Source: Chromatiales bacterium (lineage in GTDB: Bacteria > Pseudomonadota > Gammaproteobacteria > SZUA-152). From it: a stretch of DNA of 37,377 bases. Both the position numbers and the translations under genes were made by a program. Location: positions 1-37,377 of the forward strand of contig JALSHB010000193.1 of the NCBI GenBank assembly GCA_026982475.1, given 5' to 3'. The first letter of the stretch is position 1; every line of letters starts with the position of its first letter. Shown here piece by piece: positions 2,441 through 10,872 of the stretch. Below the pieces are notes generated by a model that saw only the letters and a program-made list of their open reading frames with translations, searched no databases and was not told the origin of the DNA.

Positions 2441-2938
2441 ATGCACCCGCAGCGCCGAAAACATCGCCTGATCCATCTGTTTCTCGCCGGACTGTTGCTG
2501 ATCGGCCCGGCCGCGCAGGCCGGCAATCAGGACGCCATTGAACGATTACTGGCGCAGGACCAGCCCCCCTTCGGCGTGGTATTCGAGATCGTCGAGCGCA
2601 ACGAAGATGCCCTGCAATGGGCCATCCCCGCCATCAACCGCTATGCGCGGCAGCTGCGCGAACGCTTCCCGGACATCGGCCTGGCGGTGGTCTCCCACGG
2701 CCGGGAGGAATTCGCCCTGATGAAAAGCCGCGAGGCGGACAATGCCGACGTGCACCGCCTGGTGCGGTCACTGGTGGCCGACGATGTCCCCGTGCACGTA
2801 TGCGGCACCCTCGCCTCCTGGCACGGCAAGGACGCCGGCGACTTCCCGGACTATGTCGACGTGACCCCCGCCGGGCCGACGGCGATCCGCAATTACGAGG
2901 CCATGGGTTACCTTCTCATCGAACTGAAAAGGGAGTAA
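2441..2938 (+). CDS. Secreted DsrE-like sulfur-relay family protein
   Basis: This 165-residue protein has an N-terminal export signal (basic start, hydrophobic core about residues 11-22, AQA cleavage site near 27). The mature domain resembles the DsrE/DsrF fold: FGVVFEIVERNEDALQWAI, then LAVVSHGREEFALM, then VPVHVCGTLAS with a single cysteine at residue 121, where sulfur-carrying members hold the active thiol. A conserved-looking DYVDVTPAGPTAI tail follows. DsrE-type proteins take part in sulfur trafficking; periplasmic variants are known, but their partners are unclear. The DUF2892 gene converges on it 160 bp away. The family call is by pattern and the exact role is unknown. Confidence 0.75.
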   Translation: MHPQRRKHRLIHLFLAGLLLIGPAAQAGNQDAIERLLAQDQPPFGVVFEIVERNEDALQWAIPAINRYARQLRERFPDIGLAVVSHGREEFALMKSREADNADVHRLVRSLVADDVPVHVCGTLASWHGKDAGDFPDYVDVTPAGPTAIRNYEAMGYLLIELKRE

Positions 2939-3061
2939 GGGTTTCCCGTACTCTGCACCGCTGGGTTTCAGGCGTTCGATCCCACGCCCCGAGTCACCCG
3001 CTGCGTGCGCAGAGCCAATGCAGCGACCGGGTCAAGCCTCCGTTGCAGAGACAACCGGCCC

Positions 3062-3087
3062 GGGCGGCCATGGCATTCCGGCCGCCC
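3062..3087. terminator. Possible hairpin between convergent genes
   Basis: GGGCGGCC (3062-3069) pairs with GGCCGCCC (3080-3087) around a 10-nt loop, between the ends of the convergent DsrE-like and DUF2892 genes. It has no T-run on either side, so it is at best a weak terminator or an mRNA 3'-end stabiliser. Confidence 0.3.
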
Positions 3088-3099
3088 CATGACAGCACC

Positions 3100-3318
3100 C
3101 TAGCCGGCGTGGCTGTCTCCGTGCTTCTTTTTTGTCGTGCTCACGCCAATCAAGGAATACCCTGGGCAAACACCGAACAGCCCCGTCAGCAGCGGCACGA
3201 TGCCGATATAGCCCCAGGGCGAGAGAACACTGGACCAGGGGCCCACGGCCGTCGCGCCCACCAGCGCGGCCCCCACGATGATACGGATCGCCCGATCGGC
3301 TCCACCTACATTCGCCAT
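3100..3318 (-). CDS. DUF2892 (YgaP-like) inner-membrane protein
   Basis: This 72-residue membrane protein has two hydrophobic segments: about residues 11-30, and 37-58 containing LLTGLFGVCPGYSLIGVST. The CPxY motif with Cys51 is characteristic of the DUF2892 family, the membrane module also fused to rhodanese in YgaP. Family members often sit beside sulfur-transfer genes and Crp/Fnr regulators, as here. The ATG at 3318 follows two tandem AAAGGAGAG ribosome sites in a duplicated leader. The tail is basic (TTKKKHGDSH). It is transcribed in the same direction as the Crp/Fnr gene after a 208-bp gap that holds a palindromic candidate operator, so it probably has its own regulated promoter. Confidence 0.85.
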   Translation of the reverse strand: MANVGGADRAIRIIVGAALVGATAVGPWSSVLSPWGYIGIVPLLTGLFGVCPGYSLIGVSTTKKKHGDSHAG

Positions 3319-3339
3319 GACATCTCTCCTTTGCTCTCC

Positions 3340-3390
3340 TTTGCATTCGATCTTTGCATTCGATCTTTGCATTCGATCTTTGCATTCGAT
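3340..3390. repeat. Four-copy 13-bp tandem repeat in the DUF2892 leader
   Basis: The unit TTTGCATTCGATC occurs at 3340, 3353, 3366 and 3379 (the last copy lacks the final C). Immediately beside it CTCTCCTTTG is repeated at 3324-3333 and 3334-3343, which duplicates the Shine-Dalgarno sequence of the DUF2892 gene read on the minus strand. Copies are identical, so the array is either recent or prone to slippage. Confidence 0.95.
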
Positions 3391-3432
3391 TCAAGTCGGC
3401 TACATCCTGCGCCCCTTGTCCGGCAAGGCACA

Positions 3433-3445
3433 GTGACAATGTCAC
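3433..3445. promoter_or_regulatory. Candidate Crp/Fnr-family operator (palindrome)
   Basis: GTGACAATGTCAC is a perfect 6-1-6 inverted repeat. In context it reads TGTGTGACATTGTCACTGTG on the minus strand. The half-site GTGA/TCAC is of the kind bound by Crp/Fnr proteins. It lies 115 bp upstream of the DUF2892 start and just downstream of a Crp/Fnr gene, so control of DUF2892 by that regulator is a reasonable inference. Confidence 0.5.
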
Positions 3446-3526
3446 ACAGGCAGCCGGTTTCAGGAAATCCCCGCCCGATACTTTCCCGGTGTCGCCCCGT
3501 CTAACGAAAAATCGGCGGACGCCGGC

Positions 3527-4186
3527 TCAGTCACGCCGCTGGGCAAGCTCGTCCAGCGCCGCCGGCGCCTTTACCTCGACCGCACCACGGCCAAGGCCGA
3601 CCCACTCCCGCCGGGCAAACTGCTTCAACTGGCGGCTGATCACTTCCCGCGCCGAGCCCAGCTCGCTGGCCAGCTGCTGGTGGGTGGCGGCGATGGGCCT
3701 TGCACCCTGCTCGCTCAGGGTCATCAGCAGGCGCGCCAGACGCACGTCGATACGGCCGAAGACCACGTCCTCGACACGCTGGATCAGGTCGCCCAGCCGC
3801 TGGCCCTGGCTGGCAAAGACGAAACGGCGAAACTCGGCGGAGCTGCCCAGGGCCTGGTCGAACACGGCGTGCGGCACCACCAGCGCGGTGGTTTCCACCT
3901 CGGTCACGCCTTCGGCGGGATAGGCCTCGACACTGATCAGGCAGGAGGTGGTGATCACGCAGGACTGCCCGTCGCGTACCCGGTACAGGGTGATCTCGCG
4001 GCCGTTGGTGGCCAGCATCTGCACCCGCACCGAGCCCTCCACCACCAGCAGGTAATTGCGGCAGGGATCGCCACGGCGGAAGACCTTTTTTCTCGCTGGC
4101 AGACGCACCTCCTCGACGCGTCGGCGCAGGTCCTCCAGCCCGGCGGGAAACAGGCGTTCGAGAATGGCCCGCGCCGCGGCGTTCAC
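3527..4186 (-). CDS. Crp/Fnr-family transcriptional regulator
   Basis: This 219-residue DNA-binding regulator has a cyclic-nucleotide-binding-type beta-roll (about residues 10-125), a dimerisation helix, and a C-terminal winged helix. The recognition helix lies in GSAREVISRQLKQF (about 176-189). The Fnr iron-sulfur cysteine cluster at the N-terminus is absent. Instead there are Cys42 and a pair Cys76/Cys82 in SCVITTSCLI, placed where a cyclic-nucleotide pocket would be, so thiol or sulfur sensing is possible. The start is GTG at 4186, overlapping the stop of the upstream small membrane protein (GTGA). Translation is therefore probably coupled to the RND efflux genes. It may regulate this operon, the downstream DUF2892 gene, or both. 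Confidence 0.9.
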   Translation of the reverse strand: MNAAARAILERLFPAGLEDLRRRVEEVRLPARKKVFRRGDPCRNYLLVVEGSVRVQMLATNGREITLYRVRDGQSCVITTSCLISVEAYPAEGVTEVETTALVVPHAVFDQALGSSAEFRRFVFASQGQRLGDLIQRVEDVVFGRIDVRLARLLMTLSEQGARPIAATHQQLASELGSAREVISRQLKQFARREWVGLGRGAVEVKAPAALDELAQRRD

Positions 4187-4548
4187 CGGCCGCCCTCCAC
4201 CTGCCAGCGCTGGCGGTCGAAGGCAAAGTATTCGCTGCCGTCGGCATAGCGCTCATGGATCAGGGGCACCTGCGAGCCCGGCGCCGGGCGGACATTGTCG
4301 CCCACCAGCAGGCGCAGCCGGCGGCCATCGGCCAGGCGCACGACCAGTACCGGCAGGGTCTTGTCCTGCGCGCTCATCGGCGCCGACAGCGACACCACCT
4401 CGGCACTGACCGCCGCCTGCGAGACCCGCTCCGCCGGCCACTGCCACCAGCTCCACAGCAGCAGGCCGACCAGGCCGATGGCCACGCCCCAGGCACGCAC
4501 GTTGCGGCGCACGATATAGACATGCGCCAGCCAGCGCCCCCAGCTCAT
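4183..4548 (-). CDS. Small single-pass membrane protein of unknown function
   Basis: This 121-residue protein is not recognised. A basic N-terminus (about residues 1-18) is followed by one membrane helix, VAIGLVGLLLWSWWQWP (about 22-38), with a positive-inside pattern that puts the N-terminus in the cytoplasm. The remaining 80 residues should be periplasmic, with two short beta-rich stretches, LPVLVVRLADGRRLRLLVG and VPLIHERYADGSEYFAFDRQ. Its ATG overlaps the stop of the RND permease (ATGA), and its stop overlaps the start of the Crp/Fnr gene. Such tight coupling suggests a role as an accessory or sensing partner of the pump, but nothing in the sequence proves it. Confidence 0.8.
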   Translation of the reverse strand: MSWGRWLAHVYIVRRNVRAWGVAIGLVGLLLWSWWQWPAERVSQAAVSAEVVSLSAPMSAQDKTLPVLVVRLADGRRLRLLVGDNVRPAPGSQVPLIHERYADGSEYFAFDRQRWQVEGGR

Positions 4549-7500
4549 GTCGTCACCGCCTTGCCCTCGCCCAGGCGCAGCAGGCTGGGCAGCAGGATCA
4601 GGGTGAACACGGTACTGACGCTCATGCCGCCGACGATCACCGCCGCCAGGCCCCGGTACAGCTCGCTGCCGGCGCCCGGCATCAGCAGCAGCGGCAGCAT
4701 GCCGAAGATGCTGGTGAGGGTGCTCATGAGGATCGGCCGCAGGCGCAGTTGCACCGCCTCGGCCACCGCCTCGCGGCGCGCCAGGCCGCGGCGCTCGGCC
4801 TGGCGGGTCTGGTGCACCAGCAGGATGGCGTTGTTGACCACCAGGCCGAGCAGGATGATGAAGCCGATCATGGTCAGCAGGTCCATGGACTGGAAGGTCA
4901 CTAGGTTGGTCAGGCGCAGGGCGACCACCCCGCCCACGGTGGCCAGGGGGATGGCGAGGATCACCAGCAGGCTGTCGCGGAAGGAGCGGAACAGCGCGCT
5001 CATCAGCAGGTACAGCAGGGCGATGGCCAGCCAGAAGCTGCTGCCCATGCTCTTCAGCGCCTGCTGCAGCTTGTCGGCGGTGCCGCCAAAGTGGATCTCG
5101 CCATCGGCGGGCAGCAGTGCCTCGACCCGCGGGCTCACCTTCTCCTTCAACAAGGCCATGGTGCCCTCCAGGGACATGCCGTCGGGCGCCTTCACCTCCA
5201 GGGTGATGGTGCGGCGGCGGTCGATGCGGCGGATCTCGTCCGGGCCGGCGGTGCGCACCAGGCGGGTCAGCTCGCCCAGCGGCTGGACGCCGGCATCGGG
5301 GGTCGCCAGGGGGGTGTCGGCCAGGGCCTCGGGGCTGTGCCAGTCCGGGCCGCGCAGGATCACGTCGAGGCGCTGCCGGCCATCGAAGTAGTCGCCCACC
5401 AGCAGGCCGCTGCCCAGGGCGCGAATGATCTGCGCCACCTCGGCGCGGCTCCAGCCCGCCTCGCTGAGGCGCCGCTCGTCCGGCACCAGGCGCAGCTCCG
5501 GCTCCGCCAGGTCCAGCCCCGGTCGCGGACGCGGCCGCTGCCCGGGCATGACCTCCCGCAGGGCGACATAGCCGGCCTGCGCCGCCACCAGCAGCGACGT
5601 GATGTCGCCACCCTGGATATCCATGTCGACGGTGCGCCCGCCGCCGAAGCCGCCGAACAGGGAGGAACGCCGGGCGAAGGCGATGGTGTCGGGGAAACCA
5701 CCGACGATGCGGTTGATGAGCGGCACCAGTTCGTCGGTCCTGTCCGGATCGACGGTGCGCGCGCCCATGAACATGCCGCGCGCGAAGGCGACGAAGAAGT
5801 AGTTGTTCACCGCCGGTTCGGCGTCGCCGTCGATGTATGGCTGCATGCGCTCGGCGACCACCCGGCCCAGTTCCTCTTCCAGGGTGTCGATGTTCGCCCC
5901 GGGGGGCGGCAGGATGAAGGCGAACACCAGATTGCGGTTGCCCTCCGGCAGGTAGTCCGCCTCCGGCTTCAGCTGCCAGGCCAGGGCCAGCGGCAGGGTG
6001 ATGAGGCCGATGATCCACAGGTTGCGGCGCAGCGGCGTGTCCGTGAGACGCATGATGAAACGGCTGCCGGCCGCCCACCAGCGGGCGTGGGGGTCGCGCA
6101 TCTGCGTGCGGCCGAGCCAGCCGGCGGCCGCCGTGGGCAGCACCACCACCGCCACCAGCAGCGACACGCTCACCGCCACGGCGATGGTCAGCGCCAGGTC
6201 GGCGAACAGCTGCCCGGCCTCGTCCTGGAGAAACACCACCGGCAGGAAGATGGCCACGGTGGTGGCGGTGGAGGCCAGCAGCGCCCCCCACACCCGCCGG
6301 GTGCCCTCTTCTGCGGCCTCCACTGCCCCCATGCCACGCTCGCGCAGGCGCACCACGCTCTCCAGCACCACGATGGCGGCATCCAGCACCATGCCCACGG
6401 CGAAGGCCAGGCCGGCCAGGGAGATGACGTTGAGGGTGCGCCCGGCGGCGTCCAGCACAATGAAGGACGTCACCACGCAGACGGGGATCGCCACCGCCAC
6501 CATGAGGGTGGCGCGCAGGCGGCGGAAGAACCACCACAGCACGCCCACCGCCAGCAGCATGCCGAGGCCCAGGTTGGTCTGCACCATGTCGATGGAGCGG
6601 TCGATGTACAGGGTCTCGTCGTAGACCTGCTCGAGGCTCAGGCCGGCGCGCTTGAGCGGACCCTCGCGCAGCTCGGCCGCCGCCTGCTTGAGCCCCGCCA
6701 TTACCTGCAGCACGTTGACGCCGGTCTCGCGGTGGGCATTGACCGCCATCGCCGGGCCGCCGTTCTGGATCACGAAGCCGGTGCGATCCACCAGCCGCAC
6801 CTCCACCTCGGCCACGTCGCGCAGGTAGACGGGATTGCCGTCGCGCCAATCCAGCACCATCTCGCCGAGGTCACCGAGGGCGTACTGGCCGGCGAAGCGC
6901 AGGGTGTAGCGGCGCTTGCCGACGTGGCCGTAGCCGCCGCTGATGTCCTTGGCGCCGCCCGCCAGGCGTGCCACCTCGGGCAGCTGGATGCCCAGGCTGG
7001 CGGCCTTGTAGGGGTCGAAGGTGATGCGAAGCTCGCGCTCGCGGCCGCCGCGCACCTCGGACAAGGCCACCCCGGGCACCCGCTCGAAGCGGGTCTGCAC
7101 CACCTCCTCCACGTAGTCCTGGTAGCTGGCGATGTCGCGCTCGTTGCCCTCCACGGGCTTGAGGATGAACCAGGCAATAGGACGCGAGTCGCCGCCGATG
7201 GCGCTGAGGGTGGGCTCCTGGGCGTCCTCGGGATAGCGCGGCACACGGTTGAGGCGCGAGAGGATCTCCAGCAGGGCGCGGCGCAGATCAGTGCCCACCT
7301 GGAAGGTGATGACGATCTGCGCGCGGCCACGCTGGGCGCGGGCGAGCATCTCGGTCATCCCCGGCAAGCCGCGCAGCACGTCCTCCTGGGGCTCGATGAT
7401 CTCCGACTCCACCTCCTGCGGCGCGGCGGCGCGCCACAGGGTGCTGATGGTGATCTGCGGCCGCTCCACCTCCGGGGTGAGCTGCACCGGCAGGCGTTCG

Positions 7501-7586
7501 AGGCTGATGAGGCCGAAGAGGATGGCCAGCAGCACGCCCACCACCACCGCCACCGGGTTGCCGAGGCCGAGCCGGGTGAGGGTCAC
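4545..7586 (-). CDS. RND-family efflux permease (HAE-type inner-membrane pump)
   Basis: This 1013-residue protein has the standard RND layout: TM1 at about residues 12-30, a first large periplasmic domain, a TM block from about 340, a second periplasmic domain, and a final TM block ending near 1010. It should exchange protons for exported substrate with the adaptor encoded just upstream. The proton-relay helix reads GMVLDAAIVVLES (398-410), so AcrB Asp407 is kept (Asp402) while AcrB Asp408 corresponds to Ala. The AcrB Lys940 position is Asn in GLVVNNAILLVHQ. The pump is full length and looks functional, but it is not AcrB-like in its relay. No outer-membrane TolC-type gene is nearby. The substrate cannot be predicted. 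Confidence 0.95.
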   Translation of the reverse strand: MTLTRLGLGNPVAVVVGVLLAILFGLISLERLPVQLTPEVERPQITISTLWRAAAPQEVESEIIEPQEDVLRGLPGMTEMLARAQRGRAQIVITFQVGTDLRRALLEILSRLNRVPRYPEDAQEPTLSAIGGDSRPIAWFILKPVEGNERDIASYQDYVEEVVQTRFERVPGVALSEVRGGRERELRITFDPYKAASLGIQLPEVARLAGGAKDISGGYGHVGKRRYTLRFAGQYALGDLGEMVLDWRDGNPVYLRDVAEVEVRLVDRTGFVIQNGGPAMAVNAHRETGVNVLQVMAGLKQAAAELREGPLKRAGLSLEQVYDETLYIDRSIDMVQTNLGLGMLLAVGVLWWFFRRLRATLMVAVAIPVCVVTSFIVLDAAGRTLNVISLAGLAFAVGMVLDAAIVVLESVVRLRERGMGAVEAAEEGTRRVWGALLASTATTVAIFLPVVFLQDEAGQLFADLALTIAVAVSVSLLVAVVVLPTAAAGWLGRTQMRDPHARWWAAGSRFIMRLTDTPLRRNLWIIGLITLPLALAWQLKPEADYLPEGNRNLVFAFILPPPGANIDTLEEELGRVVAERMQPYIDGDAEPAVNNYFFVAFARGMFMGARTVDPDRTDELVPLINRIVGGFPDTIAFARRSSLFGGFGGGRTVDMDIQGGDITSLLVAAQAGYVALREVMPGQRPRPRPGLDLAEPELRLVPDERRLSEAGWSRAEVAQIIRALGSGLLVGDYFDGRQRLDVILRGPDWHSPEALADTPLATPDAGVQPLGELTRLVRTAGPDEIRRIDRRRTITLEVKAPDGMSLEGTMALLKEKVSPRVEALLPADGEIHFGGTADKLQQALKSMGSSFWLAIALLYLLMSALFRSFRDSLLVILAIPLATVGGVVALRLTNLVTFQSMDLLTMIGFIILLGLVVNNAILLVHQTRQAERRGLARREAVAEAVQLRLRPILMSTLTSIFGMLPLLLMPGAGSELYRGLAAVIVGGMSVSTVFTLILLPSLLRLGEGKAVTT

Positions 7587-7589
7587 GGA

Positions 7590-8657
7590 TTACCCCCCGT
7601 CGCGGGCATCGAGGATCTGTACCGTCATCCCCGCCCGCAGACGCTCGCCGCCGCGAACCACCACCCGGTCGCCGGCGTGGAGGTCGCCGCTGACCGCGAT
7701 CAGCTCGCCGCTGGCCACGCCCGGGATCACCGTCACGCGCTCGGCGCGGTTGTCGCCGTCGATGCGGAACACCGCCGCGCCCTGACTCCGCAGTACCAGG
7801 GCATCGCGCGGCACCGCCAGCACCTCGCGCGCCGGCGCGCGCGGGATCGCCACGCGCAGGGGCTGGCCCACGCTCCAGGCGTCGCCCGTCAGGCTCACGC
7901 GCAGGTCGAGCTGGTGGGAGCGGGCATCCGCCACCGGCACCAGGGTACGCACCCGGCCGCTGGCGCTGTTGTCGCCCGCGGCCACGCTAACGCGATCCCC
8001 GGGATGCAGCAGATGCCGCGCCGAGAGGGGCGCCGCGGCCCGCGCCTCCAGCGTCGAGGTATCGATCAGCCGCAGCAGCGTATCGCCGATGCCGGCCCAC
8101 TCGCCGTTGCGCCGGGCGCGCTCCACCACCACCCCGGCGAAGGGCGCGCGCAACTGATGACGGCGCAGCTGCTCGCGCGCCTCCGTCAGGCGGGTGCGGG
8201 CGATGTTCAGCTCATTGGCCGCCACCTGTTGCCGCGAGGCCACTTCATCGAGTTGGGTCTGCGCCGTGTTGTTGCGCTTCGCCAGGCGGGTCAGGCGGCG
8301 CATCTCGCCGTGCAGGAATTGCAGCGAGGCCTCCTCGCGCGCCACGGCGGCAGTGAACTCGTCCACTTTCAGCTTGGCGAAGGTGTCGTCGATGCGCGCC
8401 AGCACCTGTCCCGCCTTCACCCGCGTGCCGGCCTCGGCCACCGACAGCAGGCGGCCGCTGGCCTCGGCGGCGAGGGCGGCCTGGTGGCGGCTGACCACGG
8501 TGGCCGCCAGCCATTGCTGCGGCGCCAGCGTCACCCGCGCCGCCTCGGCCACGCGCACCGGCAGCGCATAGCCTTTGGCCACCGACGCCGACGCCGGGAT
8601 CAGGGCAGTCAGCAACAGGATCAGGGCACCAAGGTGGATGACGGGCAGCCCAGGCAT
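7590..8657 (-). CDS. RND efflux periplasmic adaptor (membrane fusion protein)
   Basis: This 355-residue protein has an N-terminal hydrophobic export segment (about residues 8-26) and the adaptor layout. A lipoyl half-motif lies around AALAAEASGRLLSV with GQVLARIDD. A coiled-coil hairpin follows (about 95-165, rich in Glu, Arg and Gln), then the returning lipoyl half RAPFAGVVVERARRNGEW, a beta-barrel domain, and a C-terminal membrane-proximal domain ending GERLRAGMTVQILD. It should link the permease to an outer-membrane channel. It ends 3 nt before the permease start and begins 2 nt after the lipoprotein stop, which indicates one operon. There is no lipobox, so it is probably held by an uncleaved anchor or is soluble in the periplasm. 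Confidence 0.95.
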   Translation of the reverse strand: MPGLPVIHLGALILLLTALIPASASVAKGYALPVRVAEAARVTLAPQQWLAATVVSRHQAALAAEASGRLLSVAEAGTRVKAGQVLARIDDTFAKLKVDEFTAAVAREEASLQFLHGEMRRLTRLAKRNNTAQTQLDEVASRQQVAANELNIARTRLTEAREQLRRHQLRAPFAGVVVERARRNGEWAGIGDTLLRLIDTSTLEARAAAPLSARHLLHPGDRVSVAAGDNSASGRVRTLVPVADARSHQLDLRVSLTGDAWSVGQPLRVAIPRAPAREVLAVPRDALVLRSQGAAVFRIDGDNRAERVTVIPGVASGELIAVSGDLHAGDRVVVRGGERLRAGMTVQILDARDGG

Positions 8658-8659
8658 GC

Positions 8660-9109
8660 CTAGTCCTCCTCACCCAGCTGCCACGGTGTGATCTTGTGCC
8701 CCAGCAGGCGGATCTGGTCGTCGTTGACGGGCCAGACGAAGGTCATCAGGTGGTGCAGGCGCTTGTTGCCCGCATGCACGGTGGTGTATTCGTAGAGAAA
8801 GAACTTGCCGGAGAAGCGCGTGTCGGCCTGGCTGCGGCGCAGGTGCCATTCGCGCAACGGGCCGCGCTCGGCGATCAAGGCCTTCAGCTCGTCGCGCCAG
8901 GCCTGTGGCGACTGTGTCCTGAAAAAGCCCTCGTCGTACTGGGCCAGCGCGGCGTCGTAGTCCTCGGCCTGCAGGGCCTTGAAGACGGCGACGGCCTTTT
9001 CCGTCACATGCGGACTGTTATCGACGTTGGGATTGCCCTTTTCGCCACACGCGCCAAGCAGGAGCAACAGCAGGCTGGCGATGAGCAGGGCAGGGGCGGA
9101 ATGTTTCAT
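8660..9109 (-). CDS. Small lipoprotein of unknown function, first gene of the RND operon
   Basis: This 149-residue protein has a signal sequence ending in the lipobox LLGAC (Cys about 20), so it should be lipid-anchored in the envelope. The mature part contains KALQAEDYDAALAQYDEGFF, a helix pair typical of small NTF2-like or DUF4019-like domains. A beta-rich half follows (SGKFFLYEYTTVHAGNK, LMTFVWPVNDDQIRLLGHKI). No catalytic motif is visible. The ATG at 9109 is chosen because the signal peptide starts there; an upstream in-frame extension lacks plausible features. It is the promoter-proximal gene of the cluster and may assist the pump or sense envelope stress, but this is inference. Confidence 0.8.
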   Translation of the reverse strand: MKHSAPALLIASLLLLLLGACGEKGNPNVDNSPHVTEKAVAVFKALQAEDYDAALAQYDEGFFRTQSPQAWRDELKALIAERGPLREWHLRRSQADTRFSGKFFLYEYTTVHAGNKRLHHLMTFVWPVNDDQIRLLGHKITPWQLGEED

Positions 9110-9268
9110 GTCGGTGATGCCTGTGAAGAAGCGTCGGGAAATGGCGACGAATGTACCACATCCGATGGGACGGCTGTCACTCCTGACGAAGCAGCGGGCG
9201 CCAGCCGGGTCAGGTACGCCTACAAGGGTAAAACTACTCACCCATCAGACGGCGGAATAGTCGCCATA

Positions 9269-9347
9269 CGTCATTCCCGCATGTTTCAAGTGGGAATCCA
9301 GTGGTTTTAACGACATGGATTCCGGCTAAAAACGTGCCGGAATGACG
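9269..9347. repeat. 79-bp imperfect palindromic repeat element
   Basis: The ends CGTCATTCCCGC (9269-9280) and GCCGGAATGACG (9336-9347) are inverted copies with one mismatch. An inner pair, GGGAATCCA and TGGATTCCG, extends the hairpin. This sequence type, CGTCATTCC...GGAATCCA, is a common dispersed intergenic repeat in proteobacteria. The comM reading frame runs into it and stops at 9307-9309. Confidence 0.8.
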
Positions 9348-10872
9348 GATATCCAGGGGCGTGGGCAGGCTGCCGATCCAGGCGACGGTAAGAGATGGCC
9401 TCGCTGAGGTGGGCGCTGCCGATCTCCGCCGCGCCGGCCAGATCGGCGATGGTGCGCGCCACCTTGAGGATGCGGTGCCAGGCGCGGGCGGAGAGGCCGA
9501 GGCGCTCGATGGCCTGCTCCAGCAGCGCGGCATCGGCCGCCGTGAGGCGGCAGTGAGCGTCCACTTCGCGGTTGGGCAGGTTGGCATTGGGGACAGCGCT
9601 GCGCCGCAGCTGCCGCTCGCGGGCGGCCACCACGCGCCGGCGCACCGTGGCGGAGTCCTCCGCCGCCGGGTCGGCCTCGCCGCGCAACAGCTCGCGCGCC
9701 ACCGGCGGCACCTCGATGTGCATGTCGATGCGATCCAGCAGCGGCCCGGAGATGCGCGCGCGGTAGCGGCTGACCTGCTCGGCGGTGCAGTGACAGCGGC
9801 CGTTGGGGTGGCCGAAGTAGCCGCAGGGGCAGGGATTCATGGCCGCCACCAGCTGGAAGCGGGCGGGGAATTCGGCCTGACGCGCGGCGCGGGAGATGTG
9901 GATGCGGCCCGATTCCAGCGGCTCGCGCAGCACCTCCAGCACGTGGCGGTCGAACTCCGGCAGCTCGTCGAGGAACAGCACGCCGTGGTGGGCGAGGGAG
10001 ATCTCCCCCGGCCGCGGCGTGCCGCCGCCGCCCACCAGCGCCACGCCCGACGAGGTATGGTGCGGATGCCGGAAGGCCCGCTGGCGCCAGCGGGCGGCGT
10101 CGAAGGGCTGGTTGCTGATGGAGGCGACGGCGGCGGCCTCCAGCGCCTCGGCCTCGCTCATCAGGGGCAGGATGCCCGGCAGGCGGCTGGCGAGCAGGGT
10201 CTTGCCGGTGCCCGGCGGGCCGCACATGAGCAGGCTGTGACCGCCGGCGGCGGCCACCTCCAGGGCGCGCTTGGCGTGCGGCTGGCCGCGCACGTCGGCG
10301 AGGTCGTCCTGCACGGCGGGCATTTCGCCACCATCGTCGTGCACGGCGGCCGCCAGCGGGCGACTGCCGTTGAAGTGCGCGCACACGTCCAGCAGATGGT
10401 CCGCCACCAACACCTCGACGCCCTCCACCAGCCCGGCCTCGGCGCTGTTGGCCATCGGCACCAGCAGGGTGCGACCGGCCTCGCGGGCCTGGATCGCCAC
10501 CGGCAACACGCCGCGCACCGGGCGCAACTCGCCGCTCAGGGCCAGTTCGCCGAGGAACTCGAAGCGCGCGAGGTCGCTGCTGGCGATCTGTCCGGAGGCG
10601 GCGAGGATGCCGAGGGCGATGGGCAGGTCGAAGCGGCCGCCCTCCTTGGGCAGGTCGGCGGGGGCGAGATTGATGGTGATGCGGCGGGCGGGAAACTCGA
10701 AGCCGGCGGTAAGCAGGGCGCCGCGCACGCGGTCCTTGCTCTCCTTCACCGCCGCCTCGGGCAGGCCGACGATGGAGAGACTGGGCAGGCCGTTGGAGAG
10801 GTGCACCTCCACGGTCACCAGGGGGGCGTCGATGCCCACCAGGGCACGGCTGTAGATGATGGCGAGCGACAT
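9307..10872 (-). CDS. comM: ComM/YifB family AAA+ ATPase (Mg-chelatase-like)
   Basis: This 521-residue protein has an N-terminal Lon-protease-like domain (about residues 20-170), then an AAA+ ATPase of the magnesium-chelatase ChlI type. Walker A is GPPGTGKT (218-225) and Walker B is VLFLDE (298-303). A cysteine-rich insert with NPCPCGYFGHPNGRCHC follows, and then the C-terminal lid. In Vibrio cholerae, ComM is a hexameric helicase that promotes branch migration during natural transformation; the broad distribution of the family suggests a general recombination role. The start MSLAIIYSRA is typical. The last dozen residues (SFRHVFSRNPCR) are encoded by the repeat element at 9269-9347 and do not belong to the family. 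Confidence 0.95.
   Translation of the reverse strand: MSLAIIYSRALVGIDAPLVTVEVHLSNGLPSLSIVGLPEAAVKESKDRVRGALLTAGFEFPARRITINLAPADLPKEGGRFDLPIALGILAASGQIASSDLARFEFLGELALSGELRPVRGVLPVAIQAREAGRTLLVPMANSAEAGLVEGVEVLVADHLLDVCAHFNGSRPLAAAVHDDGGEMPAVQDDLADVRGQPHAKRALEVAAAGGHSLLMCGPPGTGKTLLASRLPGILPLMSEAEALEAAAVASISNQPFDAARWRQRAFRHPHHTSSGVALVGGGGTPRPGEISLAHHGVLFLDELPEFDRHVLEVLREPLESGRIHISRAARQAEFPARFQLVAAMNPCPCGYFGHPNGRCHCTAEQVSRYRARISGPLLDRIDMHIEVPPVARELLRGEADPAAEDSATVRRRVVAARERQLRRSAVPNANLPNREVDAHCRLTAADAALLEQAIERLGLSARAWHRILKVARTIADLAGAAEIGSAHLSEAISYRRLDRQPAHAPGYPSFRHVFSRNPCR

Follow-up and report, generated by a model that had tools for sequence, protein, structure and literature searches.

Does a Crp/Fnr-type regulator whose gene stands last in an efflux-pump operon control that pump? 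The question is raised by a 37,377-nt stretch of DNA from a Chromatiales bacterium (contig JALSHB010000193.1; this whole stretch is called the window), in which the regulator gene, crp, is packed behind the genes of a resistance-nodulation-division (RND) pump. Comparison with related loci (L-numbers denote loci or contigs and G-numbers the genomes compared) points elsewhere: the Crp/Fnr regulator probably belongs to a module with a YgaP-like membrane protein, and its gene would have been added to the end of the pump transcript in a single lineage. Direct control of the pump by Crp is unlikely; it is more likely that crp is carried on the pump message, with the level of pump transcription determining how much regulator is made. 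The features of the locus are as follows.

8660..9109, minus strand: lipoprotein gene, first of the pump operon (open reading frame, 149 aa)
7590..8657, minus strand: RND periplasmic adaptor gene (355 aa; TIGR01730, RND_mfp)
4545..7586, minus strand: RND permease gene of AcrB/MdtB type (1013 aa, GTG start; ACR_tran)
4183..4548, minus strand: small protein gene (121 aa; family unknown)
3527..4186, minus strand: Crp/Fnr-type regulator gene (219 aa, GTG start) with Cys42, Cys76 and Cys82
3433..3445, minus strand: predicted operator GTGAC-ATT-GTCAC (conserved; the only exact match in the window)
3100..3318, minus strand: YgaP-like_TM gene, predicted target (72 aa; PF11127, E 1.5e-19)
9148..9183, minus strand: conserved block upstream of the lipoprotein gene, GTGACAG ... 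TACATT (from an alignment; possible pump promoter)

The preliminary description of this DNA had placed the five genes from the lipoprotein to crp here, in this order on the minus strand (9109-3527), and this is borne out, with families assigned by Pfam and NCBIfam. It left out the YgaP-like_TM gene, the next same-strand gene after crp. Crp relatives occur in 17 of 24 genomes of the family and 82 of 274 of the class (E ≤ 1e-20) and in 76 of 299 of the phylum (E ≤ 1e-25), in samples that overlap, and none has been found in viral contigs. The loci examined are those returned by the family and class searches, 40 further higher-scoring class places and 29 new phylum loci; with the eight pump-linked loci and one repeat removed, they give 105 pump-free loci (76 class and 29 phylum). 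A YgaP-like gene on the same strand, downstream and within 1.2 kb, is present in 64 of these (43/76 class, 21/29 phylum), and all eight pump-linked loci also have one downstream. Since there are only one to six YgaP-like genes per genome in the 27 genomes tested, the adjacency of crp and ygaP is far beyond chance. In a tree of 82 Crp rows, whose bootstrap had not settled, the pump-linked Crps need a single change (clade support 65/98), and their nearest relatives, the Crps of L108 and L109, which join them at 100/100, come from pump-free crp-ygaP pairs. In L223, L224, L225, L226, L238 and L243 the pair is followed by similar genes for a membrane protein; that of L223 is lipid-hydroxylase-like, below the cut-off.

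The gap between crp and ygaP holds a conserved palindrome. When a match is defined as 9 or 10 of the 10 positions of GTGAC-N-GTCAC with a spacer of 3 or 4, the site is found in 54 of the 64 gaps with ygaP (19/21 phylum and 35/43 class, an earlier count on shorter stretches having given 34/43 for the class) and in 8 of the 41 stretches without ygaP. Among the 64 gaps, spacer 3 occurs in 50 and spacer 4 in 5, against about 0.15 expected for each, other spacers from 0 to 10 occur in at most 4, and shuffles give 0.05 to 0.25. All eight pump-linked loci carry a perfect copy. The perfect site of the window, at 3433-3445, is the sole exact match in 37 kb. With a YgaP-like gene directly downstream of crp as well as GTGAC-N3/4-GTCAC in the gap, the window locus qualifies as a crp-ygaP module. 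The 16-base form, TGTGACNNNGTCACTG, has exactly one copy per genome in seven genomes (the search covered G000-G004, G006 and G009, with G005 left out), every time in the crp-ygaP gap; no exact copy has been found outside that gap in these seven genomes.

The site also has a fixed place in the putative ygaP promoter. A -10-like hexamer (4/6 or better) starts 22 nt past the site in 21 of 37 cases (37 deduplicated sites of 49), whereas no other offset between 0 and 49 is reached by more than 3 of the 37; the end of the site is overlapped by a -35-like cTGAca. Because the -10-like hexamer stands at this fixed 22-nt distance, the centre of the site falls near -41, where CRP and FNR bind at class II promoters. 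The site stays close before ygaP even in gaps of about 330 or 690 nt. It is most likely bound by this Crp, judging from the conservation of the site and its distance from -10. By analogy with the action of CRP and FNR from class II sites, Crp would quite probably activate ygaP; repression by covering the -35 is possible.

In the mechanism proposed here, two modules, an ordinary RND pump core and the widespread crp-ygaP pair, would have come to lie end to end in one lineage. Within the genus, crp would have become the last gene of the pump unit, with an intermittent small membrane-protein gene between the two. Crp would bind GTGAC-N3-GTCAC between crp and ygaP, with the centre of the site at about -41 in the ygaP promoter, and would respond to reactive sulfur through its cysteines. 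The pump transcript would set the supply of the regulator, and the regulator would not set the pump. The genomes compared are mostly assemblies in pieces, and which protein binds, whether it activates or represses and what signal it reads are all inferred.

The preliminary description spoke of the pump's own Crp/Fnr regulator, a description that finds no support here: 64 pump-free relatives keep a YgaP-like neighbour, and the conserved site stands before ygaP and not before the lipoprotein gene. A local regulator would bind the lipoprotein promoter in a feedback loop, which is improbable here. This idea draws on the packing of crp into the pump unit in the genus genomes and on a match at 9 of 10 positions, with spacer 4, which the window has at -71 from the lipoprotein gene (shuffle P 0.02); the window alone has this match, however. 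Upstream of the same gene in the five relatives from the genus, the best site has a shuffle P of 0.24 to 1.00, and the right half-site is not kept. A left half, GTGACAG, is kept upstream of the lipoprotein gene in four of six genus loci and is absent or changed in L016 and L038, and it may be the -35 of the pump promoter. The single copies of the exact 16-base site in the crp-ygaP gaps of the seven genomes also speak against a loop at the pump. A conserved site at the pump promoter, as expected of an RND pump with a dedicated local regulator, has not been found before the lipoprotein gene, and Crp has been rejected as pump regulator on this ground. At about 9150-9165 on the minus strand, at the possible -10 of the lipoprotein promoter, an imperfect inverted repeat ATGT-N3-ACAT has been observed, which in an alignment reads as a perfect repeat with 6-bp arms in L038; it could be the operator of another regulator, or chance.

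A second pump beside a Crp relative also bears on local control. An RND gene has been recognised beside one pump-free Crp relative only (L120, genome G239), in a neighbour survey that misses distant pumps: tblastn found 0/106, missing even L120. The G239 Crp is 50% identical to that of the window, and its gene is flanked by a D-cysteine-desulfhydrase-like gene (112 bits, with the cut-off at 289) and, directly after it, the genes of an RND adaptor and permease. The permease is 22% identical to that of the window. The locus is without a GTGAC-N-GTCAC site, and its Crp groups apart from the pump-linked Crps in the tree. The Crp family and RND pumps may have been joined twice, with the G239 case possibly due to chance. 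A broader version, in which Crp controls ygaP through the strong site and the pump through the weak half-site as one sulfur-stress regulon, can draw on the same points as the local regulator, and on the desulfhydrase-like gene at the G239 crp-RND locus, below cut-off as it is. This dual control is equally improbable, given the loci in which the half-site is absent or changed and the standing of G239 as a single case with a Crp outside the pump-linked group.

The regulator itself belongs to the Crp/Fnr superfamily by two domains over their cut-offs, PF00027 (cNMP_binding) and PF13545 (HTH_Crp_2), and is 19% identical to E. coli CRP in an alignment. At the recognition helix, the residues corresponding to Arg180, Glu181 and Arg185 in E. 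coli CRP (Arg-Glu-x3-Arg) are retained, which fits a TGTGA-like half-site. The cyclic AMP (cAMP)-contact positions are not kept, the pocket region holds SCxxTTSC, and the CRP model gives 36.5 bits against a cut-off of 266, so the protein does not have the marks of a cAMP-dependent CRP. FNR uses an N-terminal cysteine cluster and one internal cysteine as iron-sulfur ligands, and the window protein is without a cysteine before residue 42, which sets it apart from FNR. A different cofactor on Cys42/76/82 may be present. In the 58 sequences with ygaP or the site, these three cysteines are kept in 54, 58 and 53, respectively, and this conservation makes them candidates for thiol-based sensing of reactive sulfur.

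That GTGAC-N3-GTCAC acts as an RNA hairpin or as the element of another regulator is very unlikely: as RNA the element could fold into a stem of 5 bp closed by a 3-base loop, its spacing is not the usual one of Crp/Fnr sites and eight stretches without ygaP carry it, yet it keeps a fixed distance to the -10-like hexamer, stays near ygaP even in the gaps of about 330 or 690 nt and has a half-site that fits the Crp recognition helix.

Reactive sulfur, read through the cysteines, is probably the signal, although this is a reasoned guess and nitric oxide or oxygen may be the signal instead. Downstream of crp or of the YgaP-like gene paired with it, 11 of 106 pump-free loci have a sulfur-type gene, counted from genes that were spotted by eye among the downstream open reading frames and then tested, with several loci coming from the same family; most other crp neighbours are not sulfur genes. 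The sulfur-type genes are the following.

TusA with DsrE2-type genes: L173, L175
Sulf_transp: L228, L241
Rhodanese: L234, L251
SoxYZ-like carrier of the quinoprotein-dehydrogenase type: L174
Type III sulfide:quinone reductase (SQR)-like, below the model cut-off: L231, L249, L250
Pyr_redox_2 (SQR-like): L247

According to PMC9774250, ygaVP of E. coli is repressed by the sulfide-responsive YgaV. In Bradyrhizobium diazoefficiens, the DUF2892 gene bsr5776, in an operon with trxC, is expressed less in a mutant of the CRP/FNR-type NnrR (PMC6710368).

Several observations weigh against the reading of Crp as a reactive-sulfur regulator of ygaP. The three cysteines are kept in 25, 27 and 21 of the 27 other sequences, that is, as well without ygaP as with it. 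In a Pfam tally of 67 open reading frames from 37 pump-free loci, no sulfur family is present among the 25 of 58 families listed; no family has more than three members in this tally, whose reading frames omit the YgaP-like genes and in several cases look like wrong frames in G+C-rich DNA. The phylum loci are not independent, as 25 of the 29 come from one family. The ygaP label needs 14 changes in the tree, at least 8 of them forced, so crp and ygaP have been joined or parted repeatedly. In the window itself, the -10 and -35 of ygaP are weak, and a consensus promoter scan of 2900-9500 gave none over threshold; terminator-like sites in the same interval number 3 against 2.5 expected. The TGA-TCA spacing in the site is N5, one less than the N6 of CRP and FNR sites. 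Finally, exact copies of GTGAC-N3/4-GTCAC stand upstream of crp in the pump-free L135, L155 and L180, where 0.05 are expected overall, and the site is therefore not confined to the ygaP promoter.

Crp may be autoregulated in these three loci. General autoregulation has been rejected as an explanation: a 9/10 or better site lies upstream of crp in 4 of 76 regions (three of the four exact) compared with about 1.45 expected. In L135 two Crp-type genes stand in tandem; an exact site precedes the pair, and there is one between the two genes as well. A wider regulon in the genus has been rejected as well. The 16-base form with at most one mismatch occurs at 35 places in the seven genomes (7 exact) against 28 for the reversed control, and the 13-base form at 93 places in G000 (6 exact) against 73 for the control.

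How far does the pump gene order itself reach? All five genes occur in order in five of seven genus genomes (that of the window, G002, G003, G004 and G006, with contigs L018, L017, L019 and L038 for the last four), so the order is not peculiar to the window; outside the genus it has not been seen in the genomes surveyed. Among 50 permease loci from other genomes, 10 have a lipoprotein gene, whereas crp was recognised in 6 and the small gene in just 4 (matches at E ≤ 1e-3). Some of these contigs are short, and L022 at least, which ends 119 bases past the permease, stops too early to tell; the presence of crp in only 6 of 50 is again hard to reconcile with an own regulator of the pump. Lipoprotein relatives occur in 21 and small-protein relatives in 10 of the 57 genomes searched. 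In L020, L021, L024 and L057, the lipoprotein, adaptor and permease genes are followed by other genes. In G009, from another genus of the same family, crp follows the permease directly and the small gene is missing between them; a small gene with one in-frame stop is present in this genome. The small gene lies behind a permease remnant in G017 and without a recognised pump gene nearby in G007 and G014. G001 has a cut permease, the small gene and crp on a 6.2-kb contig, and no lipoprotein match anywhere in the genome. In G005 (L016 8526-8630) the small gene is reduced to about 35 codons by an in-frame internal loss that removes the membrane helix, and from this cut-down copy the gene may be dispensable. 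These varied loci show that the pump core occurs without crp and that the small gene comes and goes.

The junctions of the five genes are tight. In the window, the lipoprotein-adaptor gap is 2 nt and the adaptor-permease gap 3 nt, and the permease-small and small-crp junctions are 4-nt overlaps, as the preliminary description had it. The genes are thus truly tightly packed, although the small-crp junction varies: L017 has the 4-nt overlap, whereas L018 and L038 have a gap of 12 nt; L019 (G004) was left out of this comparison, as its crp frame holds a stop near the start. The adaptor-permease junction is 3 nt in five of five loci and the permease-small junction -4 in four of four. The lipoprotein-adaptor junction is -1 to 2 nt in four of five loci and 993 nt in L038 (G006), where the insert (4946-5938) seems by eye to hold an acetyltransferase-like reading frame. 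The gene order and junctions are observed in these loci, and they suggest a single transcript across the five genes.

The full-length permease (ACR_tran E 2.1e-176; closest solved chain MdtB) and adaptor (RND_mfp, TIGR01730, 191.6 bits against a cut-off of 94.9, with an HlyD_3 domain; nearest solved chains 6vej and 20yy, MexJ) identify an RND pump by Pfam and NCBIfam. No outer-membrane channel gene is present among the five genes, the only part of the genome checked for one, and they therefore do not form a complete tripartite operon. The lipoprotein has an LLGAC lipobox, read from the sequence, and weak DUF4019 similarity below the Pfam cut-off, and its structural model is of low confidence (mean pLDDT 63.8). 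For the small protein, Pfam gives no family above its cut-off and NCBIfam gives no match; a model also of low confidence (mean pLDDT 62.5) predicts one long N-terminal helix and strands. Compared with AcrB/MdtB-type RND pumps with TriABC/MexJ-like adaptors, the set has the same full-length permease and adaptor, and it differs in being led by a lipoprotein of unknown family without a channel gene among the five.

The regulator shares with E. coli CRP the fold domains, the Arg180, Glu181 and Arg185 positions and a site near -41 as in class II promoters, and differs from it in its low overall identity, its replaced cAMP contacts and half-sites that are mostly one base closer. The arrangement resembles YgaV-YgaP of E. 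coli in that a regulator gene immediately precedes one that encodes a YgaP-type membrane domain; YgaV, in contrast, is an SqrR/BigR homologue, not a Crp/Fnr protein. E. coli YgaP is rhodanese-like, whereas the 72-aa window protein consists of the membrane domain only. NnrR of B. diazoefficiens is likewise a CRP/FNR-type regulator, one that affects a DUF2892 gene (PMC6710368); the NnrR sites listed there are of the TTG-N8-CAA kind, and the two regulators are set side by side by description and not by sequence. No description of this regulator has been found in the literature searched, which had most subscription papers outside its scope.

Some further features have been observed near the module in the window. 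Between the predicted operator and the YgaP-like gene, a 13-bp unit is repeated four times without error (3339-3390), with no counterpart in the L092 stretch. A 165-aa exported-looking protein is encoded at 2441-2938 on the plus strand, convergent to the YgaP-like gene, and is also found beyond ygaP in L096 and L097; it has weak DUF4194 and DsrE similarity below the cut-off and no NCBIfam match. A response regulator with an HD domain is encoded at 619-1806 on the minus strand.

It is conceivable, though doubtful, that these proteins form a Crp/Fnr subfamily for reactive-sulfur sensing, with three cysteines and closer half-sites, whose core target would be YgaP-like and elsewhere TusA, SQR-like or rhodanese genes, and which in two lineages would have become connected with RND pumps exporting a sulfur compound. 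With Crp read instead as the regulator of the YgaP module carried at the end of a pump transcript, an odd pump operon leads to precise predictions for a common regulator, namely its binding site, the geometry of its promoter, its main target and its likely signal. On this reading, membership of a pump operon need not make a regulator gene the regulator of the pump, which is a trap for annotation by neighbourhood.

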